Shown in pieces: positions 19,581 to 26,257 of a stretch of 53,148 bases of DNA. The stretch covers positions 1-53,148 of the forward strand of contig NZ_BCQV01000003.1 in NCBI RefSeq assembly GCF_001552255.1, written 5' to 3'. This stretch comes from Alicyclobacillus shizuokensis NBRC 103103. Its GTDB lineage: Bacteria > Bacillota > Bacilli > Alicyclobacillales > Alicyclobacillaceae. The notes below the pieces were generated by a model, which made no database searches, was not told the origin of the DNA, and saw nothing but the letters and a program-made list of their open reading frames with translations. Numbering within the stretch: the first letter of the stretch is position 1; every line of letters starts with the position of its first letter. The position numbers and the translations under genes were made by a program.

Positions 19581-19698
19581 AAGTCGGTGACAGGGCGGAT
19601 TCATCGGTCTTGTCCACCCGAGCATCGCCTGTCTTTGCTGCGCAGGATATGGCGTCCACGCACTTGGAAGAATAGCTACTATGAAGGGGGGCTTGCTG

Positions 19699-20661
19699 AT
19701 GCCATCGGCCATTCGCGGCATTCACCATATCACCGCCATCGCCGGCGATGTCCAGCAAAACGTGGATTTTTATGTCGGGCTGTTGGGGTTGCGACTGGTG
19801 AAGCTCACCGTCAACTTTGACGATCCCGGCACCTATCACCTCTACTACGGGGATGAACTGGGGCATCCCGGCACCATCCTTACTTTCTTCCCGTGGGGGG
19901 CGGGCCATCCGGGGCGCATCGGGACCGGTCAGGCCACCGTCACCTCCTTCTCCATACCCGAGGGTTCCGTTGGGTTCTGGACGGATCGGCTGCGGCGGGC
20001 CGGTGTCTCGTTCACCGGCCCCACACGGCGATTGGATGAACAGGTGATCTCGTTGGCGGATGCGGACGGCATCCGGTTGGAACTGGTGGCCCACCCGGGA
20101 GCCGAGGACCGCCCCGGTTGGCCGGAGGGGCCGGTGCCGCATGAACACGCGGTGCGCGGGTTTTATGGTGTCACCCTGTCTCTGGCCGACAGCACGGCGA
20201 CGGAGCAGCTGCTGGCCGAGGTGATGCAGTTTCGCCCGGTCGCAGCGGCCGACAACCGGCGCCGCTTCACAGTCGGGGACGGGGGGGCCGGCGCCTACGT
20301 GGACATCCTCACCCACACGGCAGATGCGCGCGGCCTTGTGGCCGTTGGCACGGTTCACCACGTGGCCTGGCGGGTGGCCGACCGCGAGGCGCTGGTTGCT
20401 TGGCAGGGACTGATGGCCAAGGCGGGCCTGCGTGTGACTCCTGTCATGGACCGGAAGTACTTTCAATCCGTGTACTTCCGGGAACCTGGCGGTGTCCTGT
20501 TTGAATTCGCGACCGATCCGCCCGGATTTGCGGTGGACGAATCTCCTCGGGAGCTTGGAACGCACCTGATGCTGCCCGAGTGGCTGGAGCCAGACAGGGA
20601 ACAGCTGGAATCGGTGTTGCCGCCGATTCGCATTCCGGCGGTGGGGGGTGGCGACAGATGA
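19699..20661 (+). CDS. Ring-cleaving dioxygenase, glyoxalase/VOC superfamily (MhqA/MhqO-like)
   Basis: About 320 residues with two tandem VOC modules. The first begins IRGIHHITAIAGDVQQNVDFYVGLLGLRLVK, and the second includes AVRGFYGVTLSLAD and VGTVHHVAWRVAD. Metal ligands are expected at the His of HHIT, the His of HHVAW and Glu in PGGVLFEFATDP. Bacillus relatives cleave hydroquinone-type compounds and give quinone resistance. ATG 19699 follows GGGGGG with 7-base spacing; the ATG at 19681 is an alternative. The stop overlaps the following esterase gene by ATGA, the usual dioxygenase-MhqD pairing. Confidence 0.88.
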   Translation: MPSAIRGIHHITAIAGDVQQNVDFYVGLLGLRLVKLTVNFDDPGTYHLYYGDELGHPGTILTFFPWGAGHPGRIGTGQATVTSFSIPEGSVGFWTDRLRRAGVSFTGPTRRLDEQVISLADADGIRLELVAHPGAEDRPGWPEGPVPHEHAVRGFYGVTLSLADSTATEQLLAEVMQFRPVAAADNRRRFTVGDGGAGAYVDILTHTADARGLVAVGTVHHVAWRVADREALVAWQGLMAKAGLRVTPVMDRKYFQSVYFREPGGVLFEFATDPPGFAVDESPRELGTHLMLPEWLEPDREQLESVLPPIRIPAVGGGDR

Positions 20662-21023
20662 CCGGCACCTCACACCCGCGGGATGGACACCTGGATTTCG
20701 CGCATGCGTTCATCCCGGCGCAAGATGCCGACGCCGCGACGCTGGTGCTGTTGCACGGAACCGGCGGCAACGAGGAGGACCTCATTCCCATCGGCCGTAC
20801 CTTGACGCCAGACGCGCACCTGCTTGGGGTGCGCGGCAAGGTGCTTGAGAACGGCATGCCGCGTTTCTTCCGCCGCCTGGCGGAACTGCTGACCACGGCC
20901 GGGGCCGACGTGTCGCTCTCCTGGCAAGATACCGGGCACGGGCTCGTCCAGGATGAGGTCTGGGCGGCGCGGGACTGGCTGCAAAAAGTGCTCAGGGCTC
21001 TCTCCACGCAGCCTAGGAAGTGA
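20658..21023 (+). pseudogene. MhqD-like carboxylesterase lacking its catalytic core (in-frame deletion)
   Basis: This 121-residue frame joins the N terminus of the phospholipase/carboxylesterase family (LVLLHGTGGNEEDLIPIGR ... LGVRGKVLENGMPRFFRRLAE) directly to its C terminus (LTTAGADVSLSWQDTGHGLVQDEVWAARDWL). Family members run to about 200 residues. The missing section of about 80 residues normally carries the nucleophile Ser (GYSNGA) and the catalytic Asp; only the final His (TGHGL) remains. The reading frame is preserved, and a shared CTGGCGGA-like repeat at the join could explain the deletion. It should be inactive as a hydrolase. Expression is still coupled to the dioxygenase by ATGA. 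Confidence 0.8.
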
Positions 21024-21120: not shown

Positions 21121-22017
21121 TCACGTGAACCACGTGTCGATGGTGGAACGGTTATTTTGCATCCATTTTTCCACACCCGCCTGAGGGGTCTTGGCGGCAT
21201 GAATGTCTTGCTCCAGCGTTTCTAACTGGTGTTCGCTCAGCTTAAAGTTGCGGAACCACTTCATGGCTTGTGGATGTTCAGACGCCCAGGCCTTGTTCGC
21301 TTCCCCCTGAATTCTGCCAGCCTTGCCCCAATCGCCTTTCGGATCCGACAGATATTTGAGCTTGTACTCCGAGTATATCCAGTGCGGGCTCCAGAGTGTG
21401 ACCACTACGGGTTTCTTGGCTTCATAATCTTTCATGAGGGTTGCGAGCATGGCAAGGTCTGAACTCGGGACCAGGGTCAGCTTGCTGGCACCGTAGTCGT
21501 CCAATGCCTTCTGCGCAATATGCATTTCCACGGAGCCCGCATCAATACCAATCACTTGGTTACCGAATTCCGACGCATGAGTCTTCAAATCGGAGATGGA
21601 GTGGACATCCGTCACGTACTGGGGAACCACAAAGCCTTCCTGAGTTACTCCCTCATACCACCTGCCAATTTCCGTGAGGGTGGAGCTGTAGTGGTGCAAG
21701 TACTGTTGCTGCTCCGGCACCCAAGCATCCAAGAACACGTCCACGCCGCCTTTCGACAGACCGGCGTACATAGGGCCGAGATCGAGCGCCTGCAAGTCGA
21801 CATGGTAACCCCTCTGTCGCAGTAGGTTTGCCCACAGATACGTGACGGCCACGTCTTCTTCCCAATTTACATAACCCAGTGTGATTGTCTTGTCTTGGTC
21901 AGATGCGGTGCTCGCGTTCGCGTTATGGAGCGCGTTCTGACGAATCTCAACAATTCCCACAATGATGATGGCAGTCATCACGGCGGCAGTCACGCCCGCC
22001 CGCCTATTTTTGTTCAT
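21121..22017 (-). CDS. Glycine-betaine-type ABC transporter substrate-binding protein (OpuAC-like)
   Basis: A 298-residue protein. Residues about 8-25 form a hydrophobic signal anchor with no lipobox Cys, unlike usual OpuAC lipoproteins. The binding domain shows LGYVNWEEDVAVTYLWANLL, LDLGPMYAGLSKGGVDVFLDAWVP, and LWSPHWIYSEYKLKYL; tryptophans in these blocks are the expected aromatic box for a quaternary ammonium group. It is the last gene of the five-gene operon and overlaps the Rieske gene by 14 bp. GGAG precedes the ATG. It probably delivers a trimethylammonium-like compound to the permease; the exact ligand is unknown. Confidence 0.88.
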   Translation of the reverse strand: MNKNRRAGVTAAVMTAIIIVGIVEIRQNALHNANASTASDQDKTITLGYVNWEEDVAVTYLWANLLRQRGYHVDLQALDLGPMYAGLSKGGVDVFLDAWVPEQQQYLHHYSSTLTEIGRWYEGVTQEGFVVPQYVTDVHSISDLKTHASEFGNQVIGIDAGSVEMHIAQKALDDYGASKLTLVPSSDLAMLATLMKDYEAKKPVVVTLWSPHWIYSEYKLKYLSDPKGDWGKAGRIQGEANKAWASEHPQAMKWFRNFKLSEHQLETLEQDIHAAKTPQAGVEKWMQNNRSTIDTWFT

Positions 22018-22402
22018 CGGCCACTTCTCCCTTCTCCGGCTTGTTCAGAGTGGAGACGACAACATCCTCTCCAGCGACGAATATTTGGAACCTGCCCAGC
22101 GCCCGTCTTGGGTCGGACATCATTTGTCCACCTGCCGTGACATCGAATTCCCGGCCGTGCCATGGGCACCGCAGCACTTCGCCTTCCTTCACATAACTGT
22201 ACTGACCAGGCAGATCCGTGGGAGCGGACGTTCCGCACAGTTTGCCTTTGGATAACGGGGCCCCTTGGTGAATGCACCGATTGGAGAAGGCGAACAATTC
22301 TCCGGCCCCGGTGCGGCCGATTACCAAGGAAATGCGGCCAAACTGAATCTCCTTCAGCTCTCCTGGTTGCAATTCGGTGAGTTTGCAAACGACCTGCTGC
22401 AT
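22004..22402 (-). CDS. Rieske [2Fe-2S] ferredoxin-like protein
   Basis: About 132 residues with both Rieske ligand motifs: C-I-H-Q-G near residue 42 and CPWHGREFD near residue 80. The cluster is bound by two Cys and two His. Its size fits a soluble Rieske ferredoxin rather than an oxygenase subunit. ATG 22402 is preferred because AGGAGG lies 9 bases upstream; a GTG at 22411 would overlap the upstream stop. It is encoded between an amidohydrolase and a betaine-type binding protein, suggesting electron delivery to an oxygenase acting on the imported compound. No oxygenase subunit is in the operon. Confidence 0.9.
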   Translation of the reverse strand: MQQVVCKLTELQPGELKEIQFGRISLVIGRTGAGELFAFSNRCIHQGAPLSKGKLCGTSAPTDLPGQYSYVKEGEVLRCPWHGREFDVTAGGQMMSDPRRALGRFQIFVAGEDVVVSTLNKPEKGEVADEQK

Positions 22403-22407
22403 GTCGG

Positions 22408-23505
22408 TCACCTCCTGTGGTCCTGTGGGAGTTTCGGGTAGAGGGCCAGCGCGTTATCGTGAAATATTTTCTGGCGCAGGGAGTCGCGCATGTTCGGGAA
22501 CCCTCCAACGGGATGATCAAAGTCCCAGTGTGGATAGTCTGAAGAGAAGCACACCATCTCCTCGGACCCTAGCAAATCCAACCATTGTTCAAACTCCGCT
22601 TTGGAGAATTCCTCCATAGGTTGGGTTGTGAAGCGGATATGCTCGCGAACAATTTCGGACGGCAACCGCTTAATCCAAGGCACCTCATGGCGAAGGTCCC
22701 GGTATTGCTGGTCCATTTTTCTCATCAGGTGTGGCACGTAGGTAAAACCGGCTTCAATCATAAGCAGCTTGAGGTTCGGAAACTTCTCAAACACGCCGTT
22801 GAACACGAAGCTGGTGACCTGCATCATGTGCGCCGTGGAAATCAATGTGTGCCATTCGATGAAATATCTCGGGAAGCGGCCGAAATAGACAGCGGGTTCG
22901 TTGTGATGCATAGCGATCACCAGGTTGTTGCGTTCAGCCGCCGCGAATATAGGGTGATAATACGGATCGCCCCACACGATGTTGTCGATGGGGAGCAGCA
23001 CCTGGACCATTTTCGGATGCGGGCCCACCCGGTCGATCTCGCGGGCGGCCGCCTGCGGGTCCTGAGCTGCGATATGTACAGATCCATACAATCTGCTGTC
23101 TTTCTCCAACCAATGTTCAATCTGATAGTCGTTGTAAGCAGACGCCAGGGCGGTCGCCATCTCATGCCATCCATTCATGGAAGAAGGGCTTGGATCTAGG
23201 GCGCCTGTCAGAATGCCGTACCGAATGTTCAACTCGTCCAGCAGTTGGCTGCGTAAAAAGGCTAGATCCGATCCGGCTGGACGCCCGTCTGGGAGCGCGG
23301 CGTCTGCCCGGTTCAGCCCGGCCACTGTGGGCTGGGTGTAAGGCAGGTGTTTCTCCTGAACCCAACCACAGTCGGTGATGTAGCGCCGCCAAGGGTTGTC
23401 GAGATAGGGGACCAAGTCGGGATACAACACCCGCTCATGGATGTCTGTATCAATGATGCCCGTCTCCAGCGGCCCGTCAGTTGTTTGTCCCTGTTTGACT
23501 TCCAC
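22408..23505 (-). CDS. Amidohydrolase family protein (Amidohydro_2, TIM barrel metal-dependent)
   Basis: A 365-residue protein. The start GIIDTDIHERVLYPDLVPYLDNPW has the D-x-D/H metal motif (here DTDIHE) seen in the amidohydrolase-2 / decarboxylase subgroup. Later blocks are NNLVIAMHHNEPAVYFG, MIEAGFTYVPHLMRKMD and CFSSDYPHWDFDHP, the last carrying the conserved catalytic Asp. Members hydrolyse amides or lactones or remove CO2 from aromatic acids. GTG 23505 follows AGGAGG by 8 bases. The gene starts 29 bp inside the permease gene. A catabolic role on the transported substrate is inferred. Confidence 0.85.
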   Translation of the reverse strand: MEVKQGQTTDGPLETGIIDTDIHERVLYPDLVPYLDNPWRRYITDCGWVQEKHLPYTQPTVAGLNRADAALPDGRPAGSDLAFLRSQLLDELNIRYGILTGALDPSPSSMNGWHEMATALASAYNDYQIEHWLEKDSRLYGSVHIAAQDPQAAAREIDRVGPHPKMVQVLLPIDNIVWGDPYYHPIFAAAERNNLVIAMHHNEPAVYFGRFPRYFIEWHTLISTAHMMQVTSFVFNGVFEKFPNLKLLMIEAGFTYVPHLMRKMDQQYRDLRHEVPWIKRLPSEIVREHIRFTTQPMEEFSKAEFEQWLDLLGSEEMVCFSSDYPHWDFDHPVGGFPNMRDSLRQKIFHDNALALYPKLPQDHRR

Positions 23506-24334
23506 GTTGCATGCCTCCTATCGTCTGCGAAATCCTATCCAGGATGATGGCTAGAATCACGATGCACAGCCCGGCTTCCAACCCTTGCCCGATGTTGACC
23601 GTTTCCAGGGCTGTCATCACGCTGTTTCCGAGCCCTCCGGCGCCAATCATCGCCGACACCACCACCATGGAGAGGGACAGCATGATGGTCTGATTGATTC
23701 CGGTCATGATGCTCGGCAGGGCCAATGGCAACTGGAGCTTGACAAGCACTTGCCAATCGTTGGCGCCAAACGCAGCCGCGGCCGCCACGAGGTCGTCCGG
23801 GACTTGCAAAATGCCTATCCGAATCAGTCGTATGACAGGCGGGATTGCGAAAATCACGGTGGCCAACACCGCGGGCACCGGCCCCACACTGAAAAACATG
23901 ACCGCCGGCACCAGGTACACGAAGGACGGCATCGTTTGCATGACGTCGAGAATGGGCGAGAGGATGCGATACGCAAACCTGCTCTGGGCGCACCAGACAC
24001 CCAGCGGGAAGCCAATGAGCAGGGATACGCATGTCGACACCAGCACCAGGACCAATGTGGTAATCATGGCGTTCCACATGCCCAGGTTTTCAATCATCGC
24101 AAATCCCAAGACGGTTCCTACAACCAGCCGCCACTTTCCGCCGTAGTACGCCAGTGCTGCAAATGCGGCCGTCACCAGCCACCACGGGAGGGCAGACAGG
24201 ACGTGGATGAGGAGGTCCAGGAAGTGCAGCAGGGCATTGGAGAACTGGTTGAAACCCGAGCCGGTCCGGTTGTAGAGCCATGTCACGATTGTGTTGATCC
24301 ATACATCGAGCGGAATACTGTGCATGGACGTCAT
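23477..24334 (-). CDS. Glycine-betaine-type ABC transporter permease (OpuAB/ProW-like)
   Basis: A 285-residue membrane protein with about seven hydrophobic segments. The family EAA-loop region reads GILQVPDDLVAAAAAFGANDWQVLVKLQLPLALPSIMTGINQTIM, and the block SPILDVMQTMPSFVYLVPAVMFF is typical for ProW/OpuAB. The ATG overlaps the ATPase stop as ATGA. It forms the membrane channel of the importer. Confidence 0.9.
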   Translation of the reverse strand: MTSMHSIPLDVWINTIVTWLYNRTGSGFNQFSNALLHFLDLLIHVLSALPWWLVTAAFAALAYYGGKWRLVVGTVLGFAMIENLGMWNAMITTLVLVLVSTCVSLLIGFPLGVWCAQSRFAYRILSPILDVMQTMPSFVYLVPAVMFFSVGPVPAVLATVIFAIPPVIRLIRIGILQVPDDLVAAAAAFGANDWQVLVKLQLPLALPSIMTGINQTIMLSLSMVVVSAMIGAGGLGNSVMTALETVNIGQGLEAGLCIVILAIILDRISQTIGGMQRGSQTGTNN

Positions 24335-25152
24335 CCCTTCTCCGGTTCCACGTTGCGCAAGAGATTGGCTACGTAGTCATTGACTGGAGCCTTTTTCATG
24401 ACTTCGGGTGTGCCCACCTGGACCAGTTCCCCATCCTTCATCACTCCGACACGGTCCCCCAGGCGCATGGCCTCTTGGGGATCATGCGTGATGAAGAGGA
24501 TGGTCTTTTTCAGCGCTCCTTGCAGGCGAATTAACTCGGCCTGCATCTCCGTTCGCGTGACGGGATCGAGGGCGCTGAACGCTTCATCCATGAGGAGAAT
24601 GTCGGCATCGGTGGCTAAAGCCCGCGCCAAACCCACTCTTTGTTGCATGCCTCCGCTCAACTGGCTCGGATAGTGAGATGCCCACTGTTCTAGGCCAACC
24701 ATCTGAAGTTTCTCCTTCGCGATGCGCCAACGTTCGCTTTTGGGCACACGCTGGACCTCGAGTCCAAACGCGACATTGTCCAGAACGGTGCGATGGGGAA
24801 ACAGCGAGAATGTCTGAAACACCATCGCCATGCGCCGCCGGCGGAAGCGAAGCAAGTCCGGTTTCTTCATTGCGGTCACTTCTTCATCTTCTACCTGCAC
24901 ACGCCCCGCAGACGGTTCCACGAGTCGGTTGATGCACCTGAGCAGGGTGGACTTGCCGCTTCCGGAAAGCCCCATGATGACAAACAACTCACCGTCATGA
25001 ACCTCTAGGTCAACCTGGTGGATGCCCACGGTGCAGCCCGACTGCTCCTGGATTTGCCGCTTACTGGCGCCGTTTCTTAACAGTCTCAGCGCCTCATCGG
25101 ACCTGGGGCCGTAAAATTTGGTGAGACGGTAAGTCTTCAGGAGGGTACTCAT
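24331..25152 (-). CDS. Glycine-betaine-type ABC transporter ATP-binding protein (OpuAA-like, no CBS domains)
   Basis: A 273-residue ATPase. The OpuAA/ProV-specific N-terminal segment EALRLLRNGASKRQIQEQSGCTVGI is present. Walker A is MGLSGSGKSTLLR, the signature is LSGGMQQRVGLARAL and Walker B is ILLMDEAFSALDP. OpuAA and ProV usually have C-terminal CBS domains (about 400 residues); this one ends soon after the nucleotide-binding domain, so osmotic or cyclic-dinucleotide gating through CBS is unlikely. ATG 25152 begins the family-like region; the AAGGGAG upstream is rather far. It is the first gene of the leftward operon. Confidence 0.88.
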   Translation of the reverse strand: MSTLLKTYRLTKFYGPRSDEALRLLRNGASKRQIQEQSGCTVGIHQVDLEVHDGELFVIMGLSGSGKSTLLRCINRLVEPSAGRVQVEDEEVTAMKKPDLLRFRRRRMAMVFQTFSLFPHRTVLDNVAFGLEVQRVPKSERWRIAKEKLQMVGLEQWASHYPSQLSGGMQQRVGLARALATDADILLMDEAFSALDPVTRTEMQAELIRLQGALKKTILFITHDPQEAMRLGDRVGVMKDGELVQVGTPEVMKKAPVNDYVANLLRNVEPEKG

Positions 25153-25290
25153 GCGTGTACGTGCGTCACTCCCTTCTTGGCTGGAAAAAAAGAAGACAAA
25201 AGCAACCACAGCCCGTCCCCTCGGGCGTACGTCGCTCTTGTCTTCGGTGGTCCGATCGACAATTCGCAGTATGCAAATCAGTATAGAGAG

Positions 25291-25343
25291 AATATAATCG
25301 TCTCCAGTGGTTGTGTCAATATGTGTACCGTACGGACGGTACA
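25291..25343 (-). promoter_or_regulatory. Promoter of the importer operon with TetR operator
   Basis: Reading leftward: TTGACA (25319-25314), a 17-bp spacer, TATATT (25296-25291), nearly consensus sigma-A. Five bases further right lies the perfect 20-bp inverted repeat TGTACCGT-ACGG-ACGGTACA (25324-25343), between this promoter and the divergent tetR gene. The form is typical of TetR operators, so the neighbouring regulator probably controls both directions. Confidence 0.75.
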
Positions 25344-25380
25344 GATTTGGACTGAAACGGTGGGAAAGGATGAAGCGAAT

Positions 25381-25932
25381 GTGAGCACGCATCGTGGACG
25401 TCCGTCGAAGCGTGAACAGATTTTGCGAGCCGCCGCGCAGTTGGTCCGCGAACAGGGGGTGGCCCACCTGACGATGGAGGCTGTGGCCGAGCAAGCTCAC
25501 GTCAGCAAGGGGGGCGTATTGTATCATTTTCCAACGAAAGAAGAGTTGGTCAAGTCTATGGTGAATCACATCATGGACCAGTTCACCGCGAATATGGAGA
25601 GGACCGCTCTGTCCGACGAGGAAGGGGTGGGGCGGTGGACGCGGGCGTATGTATGGGAGACATTTAAACTGCTGGAGGGGGTCCCCGACATGACAGTTGG
25701 GCTCCTCGCCGCCAGTTCAGAGAATCCTGAACTCCTGAAGCCGGTACAAGACCACTACGACACTTGGCAGCTGCGGATTGAGAACGACGAGATTGACCCT
25801 GTGCTGGCCACCATCATTCGCTTGGCCGCAGACGGACTGTGGTTCATCGAACTGTTTGGCTGCACCTCTTTGGAACCCAAATTGCGGCAACAGGTAAAAG
25901 ACACACTCATAACCATGACGAAAGGACATTGA
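25381..25932 (+). CDS. TetR/AcrR family regulator of the importer and SMR genes
   Basis: A 183-residue protein starting at GTG 25381, preceded by AAAGGA. The helix-turn-helix region is LTMEAVAEQAHVSKGGVLYHFPTKEELV, a classic TetR sequence of the kind with a short core and a C-terminal TetR_C-like domain (about 75-183). It lies opposite the catabolic importer operon and just before an SMR exporter (5 bases apart). It likely senses the quaternary-amine-like substrate and binds the palindrome at 25324-25343. Confidence 0.88.
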   Translation: MSTHRGRPSKREQILRAAAQLVREQGVAHLTMEAVAEQAHVSKGGVLYHFPTKEELVKSMVNHIMDQFTANMERTALSDEEGVGRWTRAYVWETFKLLEGVPDMTVGLLAASSENPELLKPVQDHYDTWQLRIENDEIDPVLATIIRLAADGLWFIELFGCTSLEPKLRQQVKDTLITMTKGH

Positions 25933-25936
25933 CGAC

Positions 25937-26257
25937 ATGGCCTACTTGTATCTTGGCATCGCTATCGCCAGCGAGGTGTTCGCCACTTCCATGCTGAAGG
26001 CCACGCTGGGGTTCACACGTATTCTGCCTACCATCGGTGTGTTTCTCGGATACGGCGTCGCCTTCTACGCCATGTCGCTGGCGCTCAGGGACATCCCGCT
26101 CAGTGTATCCTACGCCATCTGGTCGGGCTTGGGGACTGCCAGCACGGCCATCATCGGCTGGATTTTCTGGAAGCAGGCTCTGAACGGGACGATGGTGGCC
26201 GGCATCCTGCTCATCATCGCCGGGGTGGTGCTGTTGAATCTGAATCGGGGCGCCTAG
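25937..26257 (+). CDS. Small multidrug resistance (SMR) transporter
   Basis: A 106-residue protein with four hydrophobic helices. The essential membrane Glu lies in YLYLGIAIASEVFATSMLKA (about residue 13), and PLSVSYAIWSGLGTASTAIIG and GWIFWKQALN are standard SMR blocks. Members export quaternary ammonium cations or guanidinium in exchange for protons. It shares an operon with the TetR regulator next to an importer for quaternary-amine-like compounds, so it may bleed off excess or a toxic product. Confidence 0.92.
   Translation: MAYLYLGIAIASEVFATSMLKATLGFTRILPTIGVFLGYGVAFYAMSLALRDIPLSVSYAIWSGLGTASTAIIGWIFWKQALNGTMVAGILLIIAGVVLLNLNRGA

Follow-up and report, generated by a model that had tools for sequence, protein, structure and literature searches.

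The window analysed here is a 53,148-nucleotide stretch of the genome of Alicyclobacillus shizuokensis NBRC 103103 (contig NZ_BCQV01000003.1), in which five overlapping leftward genes encode an importer together with a PF04909 protein and a small Rieske ferredoxin, opposite a TetR-SMR gene pair. It was found that the PF04909 protein, which carries the name 'amidohydrolase', is very probably an amidohydrolase-related dinuclear oxygenase (ARO) and itself the oxygenase of the system, and that the gene neighbourhoods of its clade point to choline and betaine. We propose that choline is imported and oxidised with O2 in the window lineage, a reading to which a probability of about 0.55 was assigned. 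The genes are as follows.

21121-22017, minus strand: OpuAC-type substrate-binding protein (PF04069, 199.4 bits)
22004-22411, minus strand: small Rieske [2Fe-2S] ferredoxin (PF00355; motif C46-x-H...C-x2-H85)
22408-23505, minus strand: PF04909 protein, read as an ARO from its PDB matches, fold and conserved residues
23477-24334, minus strand: ChoW/ProW-like permease (PF00528)
24331-25152, minus strand: ATPase of a ProV/ChoV-type importer, 273 amino acids (ABC_tran; TIGR01186)
25381-25932, plus strand: TetR-family regulator with a PF17937 C-terminal domain (profile matches)
25937-26257, plus strand: SMR exporter of the Qac/EmrE subtype (PF00893; nearest to EmrE)

Counted from the ATPase gene to the binding-protein gene, the leftward genes overlap by 4, 29, 4 and 14 bp, the third of these being the overlap of the PF04909 and Rieske genes, and a gap of 4 bp separates the TetR and SMR genes. 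These coordinates bear out the layout given in a preliminary description of this DNA, that of five overlapping genes opposite a TetR-SMR pair.

The PF04909 protein and its ferredoxin

The PF04909 profile matched the window protein with 105.6 bits (cut-off 26.4). The closest solved chains were 8SM9, 8SM8, 8SM7, 8SM6 and one chain of AibH1H2, at 363 to 190 bits, and the second AibH1H2 chain scored 137 bits; the remaining PF04909 families reached at most 70 bits, with the oxygenase PtmU3 at 48. The predicted structure, obtained from a 31-sequence alignment with a mean predicted local distance difference test score (pLDDT) of 88.9, was matched to 8SM9 by Foldseek with TM values of 0.90/0.96, a root-mean-square deviation of 1.3 and 48% identity. 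AROs, including AibH2 and SfbO, have been described (PMC10811679), and the available parts of PMC10401708 and PMC7782822 treat AROs and AibH1H2, respectively. Six residues (D21, H23, H200, E251, D323 and H326) were invariant in the 26 rows of the clade defined below and in 67 remoter rows, except for L138, whose open reading frame call is missing the N-terminal columns including the start. The published ARO ligand set consists of three histidines and three carboxylates. Judged by this count and by the motifs, the six residues are candidate metal ligands, and the protein may use a dinuclear Mn/Fe or Fe2 cofactor for an O2-dependent hydroxylation.

A Rieske match was observed in all 25 other clade loci in a six-frame search, although it was partial in L003. 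Sequence, fold and neighbours indicate that the Rieske protein is most likely the electron donor to the PF04909 oxygenase, and they disfavour the earlier view of a hydrolytic enzyme accompanied by a separate redox protein. A hydrolase reading was tried and rejected on the nearest solved chains and the fold match to 8SM9. It is highly improbable that the protein acts as a hydrolase or decarboxylase proper, with the Rieske protein serving another oxygenase: the Pfam name and two PF00848 proteins elsewhere in the window's own genome (G000) would agree with such a function, but AROs and AibH1H2 are the nearest solved relatives at 137-363 bits, against at most 70 bits for other families, and the six-residue pattern is invariant across the aligned AROs. 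Furthermore, PF00848 proteins were found in three of the ten genomes searched (two in the window's own genome, one in G002 and one in G017), and none was found in G029, which carries the operon. The search for a Rieske oxygenase elsewhere in the genome, as suggested previously, returned candidates, but such a remote partner was judged unneeded, since no PF00848 protein accompanies the operon in G029.

The window system resembles the known AROs (SfbO, AibH1H2, 8SM7, 8SM8 and 8SM9) in its PF04909 fold, the six candidate ligands, the adjacent small Rieske gene and the permeases nearby. According to PMC10401708, a Rieske protein co-occurs in 90% and permeases in 40%. The window system differs from the known AROs in sequence, the nearest solved protein being 48% identical, and in that its clade adjoins genes for betaine-aldehyde dehydrogenase (BADH) and for betaine/choline transport. 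The sulfate-binding arginines 232 and 235 of SfbO align with H219 and I222 here; this alignment is uncertain, since Tyr 280 of the same list misses a Tyr.

Clade neighbourhoods and the case for choline

The relatives' sample comprised 61 genomes, the window's own counted, and a clade member was defined by at least 65% identity. Four of the 61 genomes (own included) contained a member, and the five-gene order with the TetR-SMR pair was found in three (G000, G002 and G029). All seven genes are kept in G002, from the same genus, with 98-100% identity. In G029, from another genus of the same family, the identities are 67% for the ATPase, 68% for the permease, 86% for the ARO, 75% for the Rieske protein, 74% for the binding protein, 78% for TetR and 74% for SMR. 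No match was obtained in G001, of the window's genus, when the ARO was searched at E 1e-40. A search of relatives for this gene order, which the preliminary description had called for, thus recovered it in G002 and G029, but with a patchy distribution.

The whole clade comprises 26 genomes, namely the four relatives, six named Bacilli from a genome collection (in a search that kept the best 80 of 588) and 16 further members from the order of Evansella vedderi, where 249 genomes gave 18 such matches, two of them already counted. In a quick tree of 45 of the 93 rows, with SH-aLRT support only, all 26 clade rows fall on a single starred branch (SH-aLRT 99). Within it, the three importer-type rows group together (100, starred), as do the other 23 (94, not starred). 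Fifteen residues selected from the clade-typical positions of the alignment (W48, E51, K52, Q58, D104, W113, M116, D174, W178, H201, N202, E203, F215, H226 and H273) occur unchanged in the window subgroup and throughout the sister group (23/23; 26/26 in all). Thirteen other positions, among them 94, 127, 175, 205, 211 and 232, show near-fixed differences between the two subgroups.

Neighbours were counted by a six-frame search of the loci, up to ~8 kb per side and less at contig ends, and compared with those of 76 remoter ARO loci. BADH with at least 55% identity was found at 14 of 25 clade loci (14/26 with the window locus, which has none at this identity) and at none of the 76 remoter loci, one of which has an aldehyde dehydrogenase of 34% identity. 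OpuAC-type or BCCT transport genes were found at 13/25 clade loci (14/26 with the window) against 0/76, where three loci have a permease match of 24-28%. A pyridine-nucleotide flavoprotein, which we take to be YumC-like and which is a candidate ferredoxin reductase, was present at 14/25 clade loci against 1/76. Fisher's test for BADH gave p ~1.6e-10, which is only a guide because the rows are related and the 76 remoter loci are largely from other taxa. Placed on the tree, the BADH label needs four changes, at least two of which are forced by starred branches. ARO and BADH are co-oriented in 14/14 linked loci. In G264, which holds both kinds of ARO, the clade ARO is linked to BADH and the remoter one is not (L137, L154).

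The linked dehydrogenases exceed the TIGR01804 (BADH) cut-off. That of L006 is nearest to 4MPB, labelled 'Betaine aldehyde dehydrogenase' and presumably S. aureus BetB, at 734 bits, the next group scoring 450. In G017, a member of the window's family, a GbsR/CudC-like gene (183.6 bits, under the cut-off of 218), the ARO, the Rieske gene and BADH stand side by side, and an OpuAC gene lies opposite them; no GbsR match was found in the other clade loci searched. The clade-locus neighbours included no BetA, and no GbsB above 31%. The clusters of the relatives are similar to GbsAB, BetBA and CudAB clusters in having BADH, a GbsR/CudC-like regulator (G017 only), orphan OpuAC-like proteins in the manner of GbsU and BCCT transporters in the manner of CudT. 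They are unlike them in that ARO and Rieske protein replace GbsB or BetA, and the window operon is without BADH. Published gbs/cud clusters carry GbsR, GbsU and CudT, as given in the available part of PMC6207618. Since many close relatives adjoin betaine-synthesis genes, choline is probably the substrate of the clade ARO and would be oxidised to betaine aldehyde. The earlier guess at a quaternary-amine-like substrate agrees with these neighbours, which point to choline or betaine aldehyde.

Orphan OpuAC-type binding proteins resembling GbsU were observed beside the ARO clusters of L005, L006, L141, L142, L147 and L149, with their halves swapped as in B. subtilis OpuAC. One stop was observed within the ARO match in each of G162, G253 and G227, and one within the ARO-linked BADH of L004 (G064:C1:4859929-4861290), which might be due to decay or sequencing error.

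Genome-wide, BADH over the cut-off was present in 21 of the 26 clade genomes and was lacking, at the thresholds used, in G000, G002, G029, G063 and G083. This search covered ARO-bearing genomes, with the ARO-lacking genomes of the order outside it, so the counts come without a background rate. In four genomes (G017, G061, G113 and G202) BADH exceeds the cut-off, and BetA and GbsB (the latter at 74% or more) are both missing; three of the four have their BADH linked to the ARO. Choline oxidation by the ARO finds its strongest argument in these four genomes and, if true, suggests how genomes with BADH and without BetA or GbsB make betaine.

By the proposed mechanism, the importer, consisting of the binding protein, the permease and an ATPase lacking a CBS domain, would take up a trimethylammonium compound, most likely choline. 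The Rieske ferredoxin, reduced by a general ferredoxin reductase, would pass electrons to the PF04909 protein as a dinuclear Mn/Fe or Fe2 monooxygenase, which would hydroxylate C1 of choline with O2 to give betaine aldehyde hydrate. In many relatives the dedicated BADH of the same cluster would then turn betaine aldehyde into glycine betaine, and in the window lineage the last step would have to be performed by another aldehyde dehydrogenase, or the aldehyde would have another fate. The divergent EmrE-type exporter could remove excess choline or aldehyde, and the shared promoter region would be the target of TetR. An earlier proposal of a unit that imports, degrades and expels a quaternary amine holds in part: a redox unit, a quaternary-amine-type importer and an opposite Qac/EmrE exporter are kept together in relatives, but degradation by hydrolysis is not supported. 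Plant choline monooxygenase, which is of the Rieske type, performs the same O2-dependent step with reduced ferredoxin, and its fold and metal site are unrelated. Chances are about even that the clade as a whole represents a new non-Rieske choline monooxygenase with an amidohydrolase fold and a dinuclear Mn/Fe or Fe2 site, and gives halophilic and related Bacilli a further way of making glycine betaine; the window would then show the form with enzyme and ferredoxin built into the importer operon.

A number of observations weigh against choline oxidation by the clade. ARO is not beside BADH in 12/26 clade genomes. BetA is present in 15/26 and true GbsB (at least 74%, the next relative following far behind at 38%) in 6/26, so other choline oxidisers often accompany the ARO. 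G083 has ARO and BetA and no BADH at E 1e-185, and G063 has ARO and GbsB and no BADH at E 1e-150. The three sole carriers found of the five-gene form (G000, G002 and G029) have no BADH over the cut-off, nor BetA or GbsB; the best BADH match of the window's own genome reached 643.8 bits (cut-off 668.6) and is located elsewhere. Own-genome searches also gave no BetA at E 1e-30, a level at which the BetA model might catch choline oxidase (CodA), which had no search of its own, and the nearest GbsB relative was at 37%. Because the 76 remoter loci are largely from other taxa, taxon and function are partly confounded, and L088, a remote ARO outside the 76, has an aldehyde dehydrogenase of 38% identity upstream. 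Lastly, the nearest solved chain to the window's binding protein is 2B4L (OpuAC), with 163 bits against 64 for the choline-type 2REG, which would suit betaine as the cargo. The BADH-like gene of the window's own genome was seen to adjoin a seeming ureohydrolase and a permease (read without a family search).

Since the window subgroup is without BADH, BetA and GbsB, its substrate assignment rests on homology and the clade-typical residues. The same oxygenase might act on another quaternary or zwitterionic substrate (carnitine, gamma-butyrobetaine, proline betaine or a sulfonium analogue), either because the aldehyde handled by the neighbouring dehydrogenase is not betaine aldehyde or because the window subgroup has shifted. 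We regard this as unlikely, albeit worth weighing. The lack of BADH over the cut-off in the window subgroup, its separate branch and the 13 near-fixed differences are consistent with it, and OpuAC-type binding proteins take several betaines. On the other hand, ARO-linked and BetA-linked dehydrogenases of the same genomes reach similar BADH scores (742.4 and 740.9 bits in G243), a GbsR/CudC-like regulator, though under its cut-off, accompanies the ARO in G017, and the fifteen clade-typical residues are common to both subgroups.

It is improbable that the ARO demethylates imported glycine betaine, by N-methyl hydroxylation to dimethylglycine and formaldehyde, as a catabolic importer-demethylase unit. 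This would fit the OpuAC-like binding protein and the N-dealkylation of aminoethylsulfonate buffers by SfbO in vitro (PMC10811679), but it leaves the BADH next door in 14/26 genomes unexplained. No match to FAO_M (dimethylglycine-dehydrogenase type) was found in 26/26 clade genomes with a limited 56-position model that matched 1/14 controls, which speaks mildly against betaine demethylation.

In searches of a PMC library, no title or abstract opening among those listed ties PF04909 or AROs to choline, most subscription papers being outside that scope. AROs are widespread and few of their substrates are known. For the four AROs studied in 2024, genomic data gave no ready indication of the natural substrates (PMC10811679), and PMC10401708 counts 555 AibH2-like proteins, all uncharacterised in 2023. 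The clade-specific neighbours therefore offer a concrete substrate to test for AROs; if it is correct, an Mn/Fe- or Fe2-type enzyme joins the known choline oxidisers.

Importer, exporter and TetR proteins

The window ATPase scored 337.1 bits with TIGR01186, over the cut-off of 326.6, and 348.4 bits with the choline-type TIGR03415, under its cut-off of 483.75; the permease scored 320.1 bits with TIGR03416, under the cut-off of 363. As stated previously, the ATPase is without a CBS domain: only ABC_tran was found along its 273 residues in the Pfam search. A 406-residue ATPase homologue in L001 has a CBS domain. The importer is similar to OpuA, ProU and ChoXWV in its ProV-type ATPase, ProW/ChoW-like permease and OpuAC binding protein, and unlike them in the lack of CBS and in the oxygenase and ferredoxin genes lying between those of the permease and the binding protein. 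The binding protein keeps three tryptophans (W52, W99 and W209), which presumably form an aromatic box, and a PHW motif. Judged by the similarity of the binding protein, choline and glycine betaine would both be compatible as cargo.

The TetR protein is nearest to the solved chains 2YVH, 2YVE and 2ZOY (45 bits), which we take to be the multidrug-binding CgmR. The SMR protein scored 77 bits with EmrE against 55 for the group of 6WK5, presumably a Gdx protein, and fell short of the NCBIfam cut-offs for those named SMR proteins that were listed; it may serve to expel choline or the aldehyde.

Promoter region and leader of the importer operon

Four elements were located between the divergent genes.

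25324-25343, no strand: imperfect palindrome, probably the operator for TetR, immediately upstream of the importer -35
25291-25319, minus strand: sigma-A-type promoter TTGACA-17-TATATT of the importer operon, 11/12 consensus matches
25238-25262, minus strand: 25-nucleotide leader block TTGTCGATCGGACCACCGAAGACAA, hairpin-capable, antiterminator candidate by conservation and fold
25185-25245, minus strand: terminator-like long hairpin with T-run, sharing GAAGACAA with the block TTGTCGATCGGACCACCGAAGACAA

The palindrome had been described as perfect; 18 of its 20 positions match its own reverse complement, one of the ten pairs being mismatched. Its core ACCGTACGGACGGT is 14/14 identical in L091, from a second genus, and such identity within a diverged intergenic region is more than chance. 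The importer promoter, lying just downstream of this probable operator, was the one site found in the promoter scan against 0.2 expected.

The 25-nucleotide block, whose hairpin has -9.6 kcal/mol, is identical in the window, L090, L091 and L187. A 23-nucleotide core of it occurs once in G000, once in G002 and twice in G029, and nowhere else among the 61 genomes. The leader folds gave z values of -3.9 for the window, -2.0 for L091 and -2.6 for L187 (1470-1590, plus strand), with 0, 8 and 4 of 200 shuffles, respectively, folding as well. The long hairpin at 25185-25245 was not among the hits of a simple terminator scan. No Rfam match was found for the leader, the region's only one being weak, at chance level, at 21991-22128. 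The two hairpins appear to compete and to be mutually exclusive, and the leader looks like an attenuator. The second G029 copy of the core precedes an amino-acid-permease-family (APC) gene, and a related, operator-like palindrome lies at the -35 of that promoter. Such a second copy with a similar operator suggests that a small TetR-plus-attenuator regulon is possible.

Adjoining the operon, a glyoxalase-family gene (19681-20661, plus strand) and an open reading frame read as esterase-like (20580-21023, plus strand) were observed. Both are absent beside the operon in L090 and L091, which places them outside the conserved set and indicates an indel between congeners.

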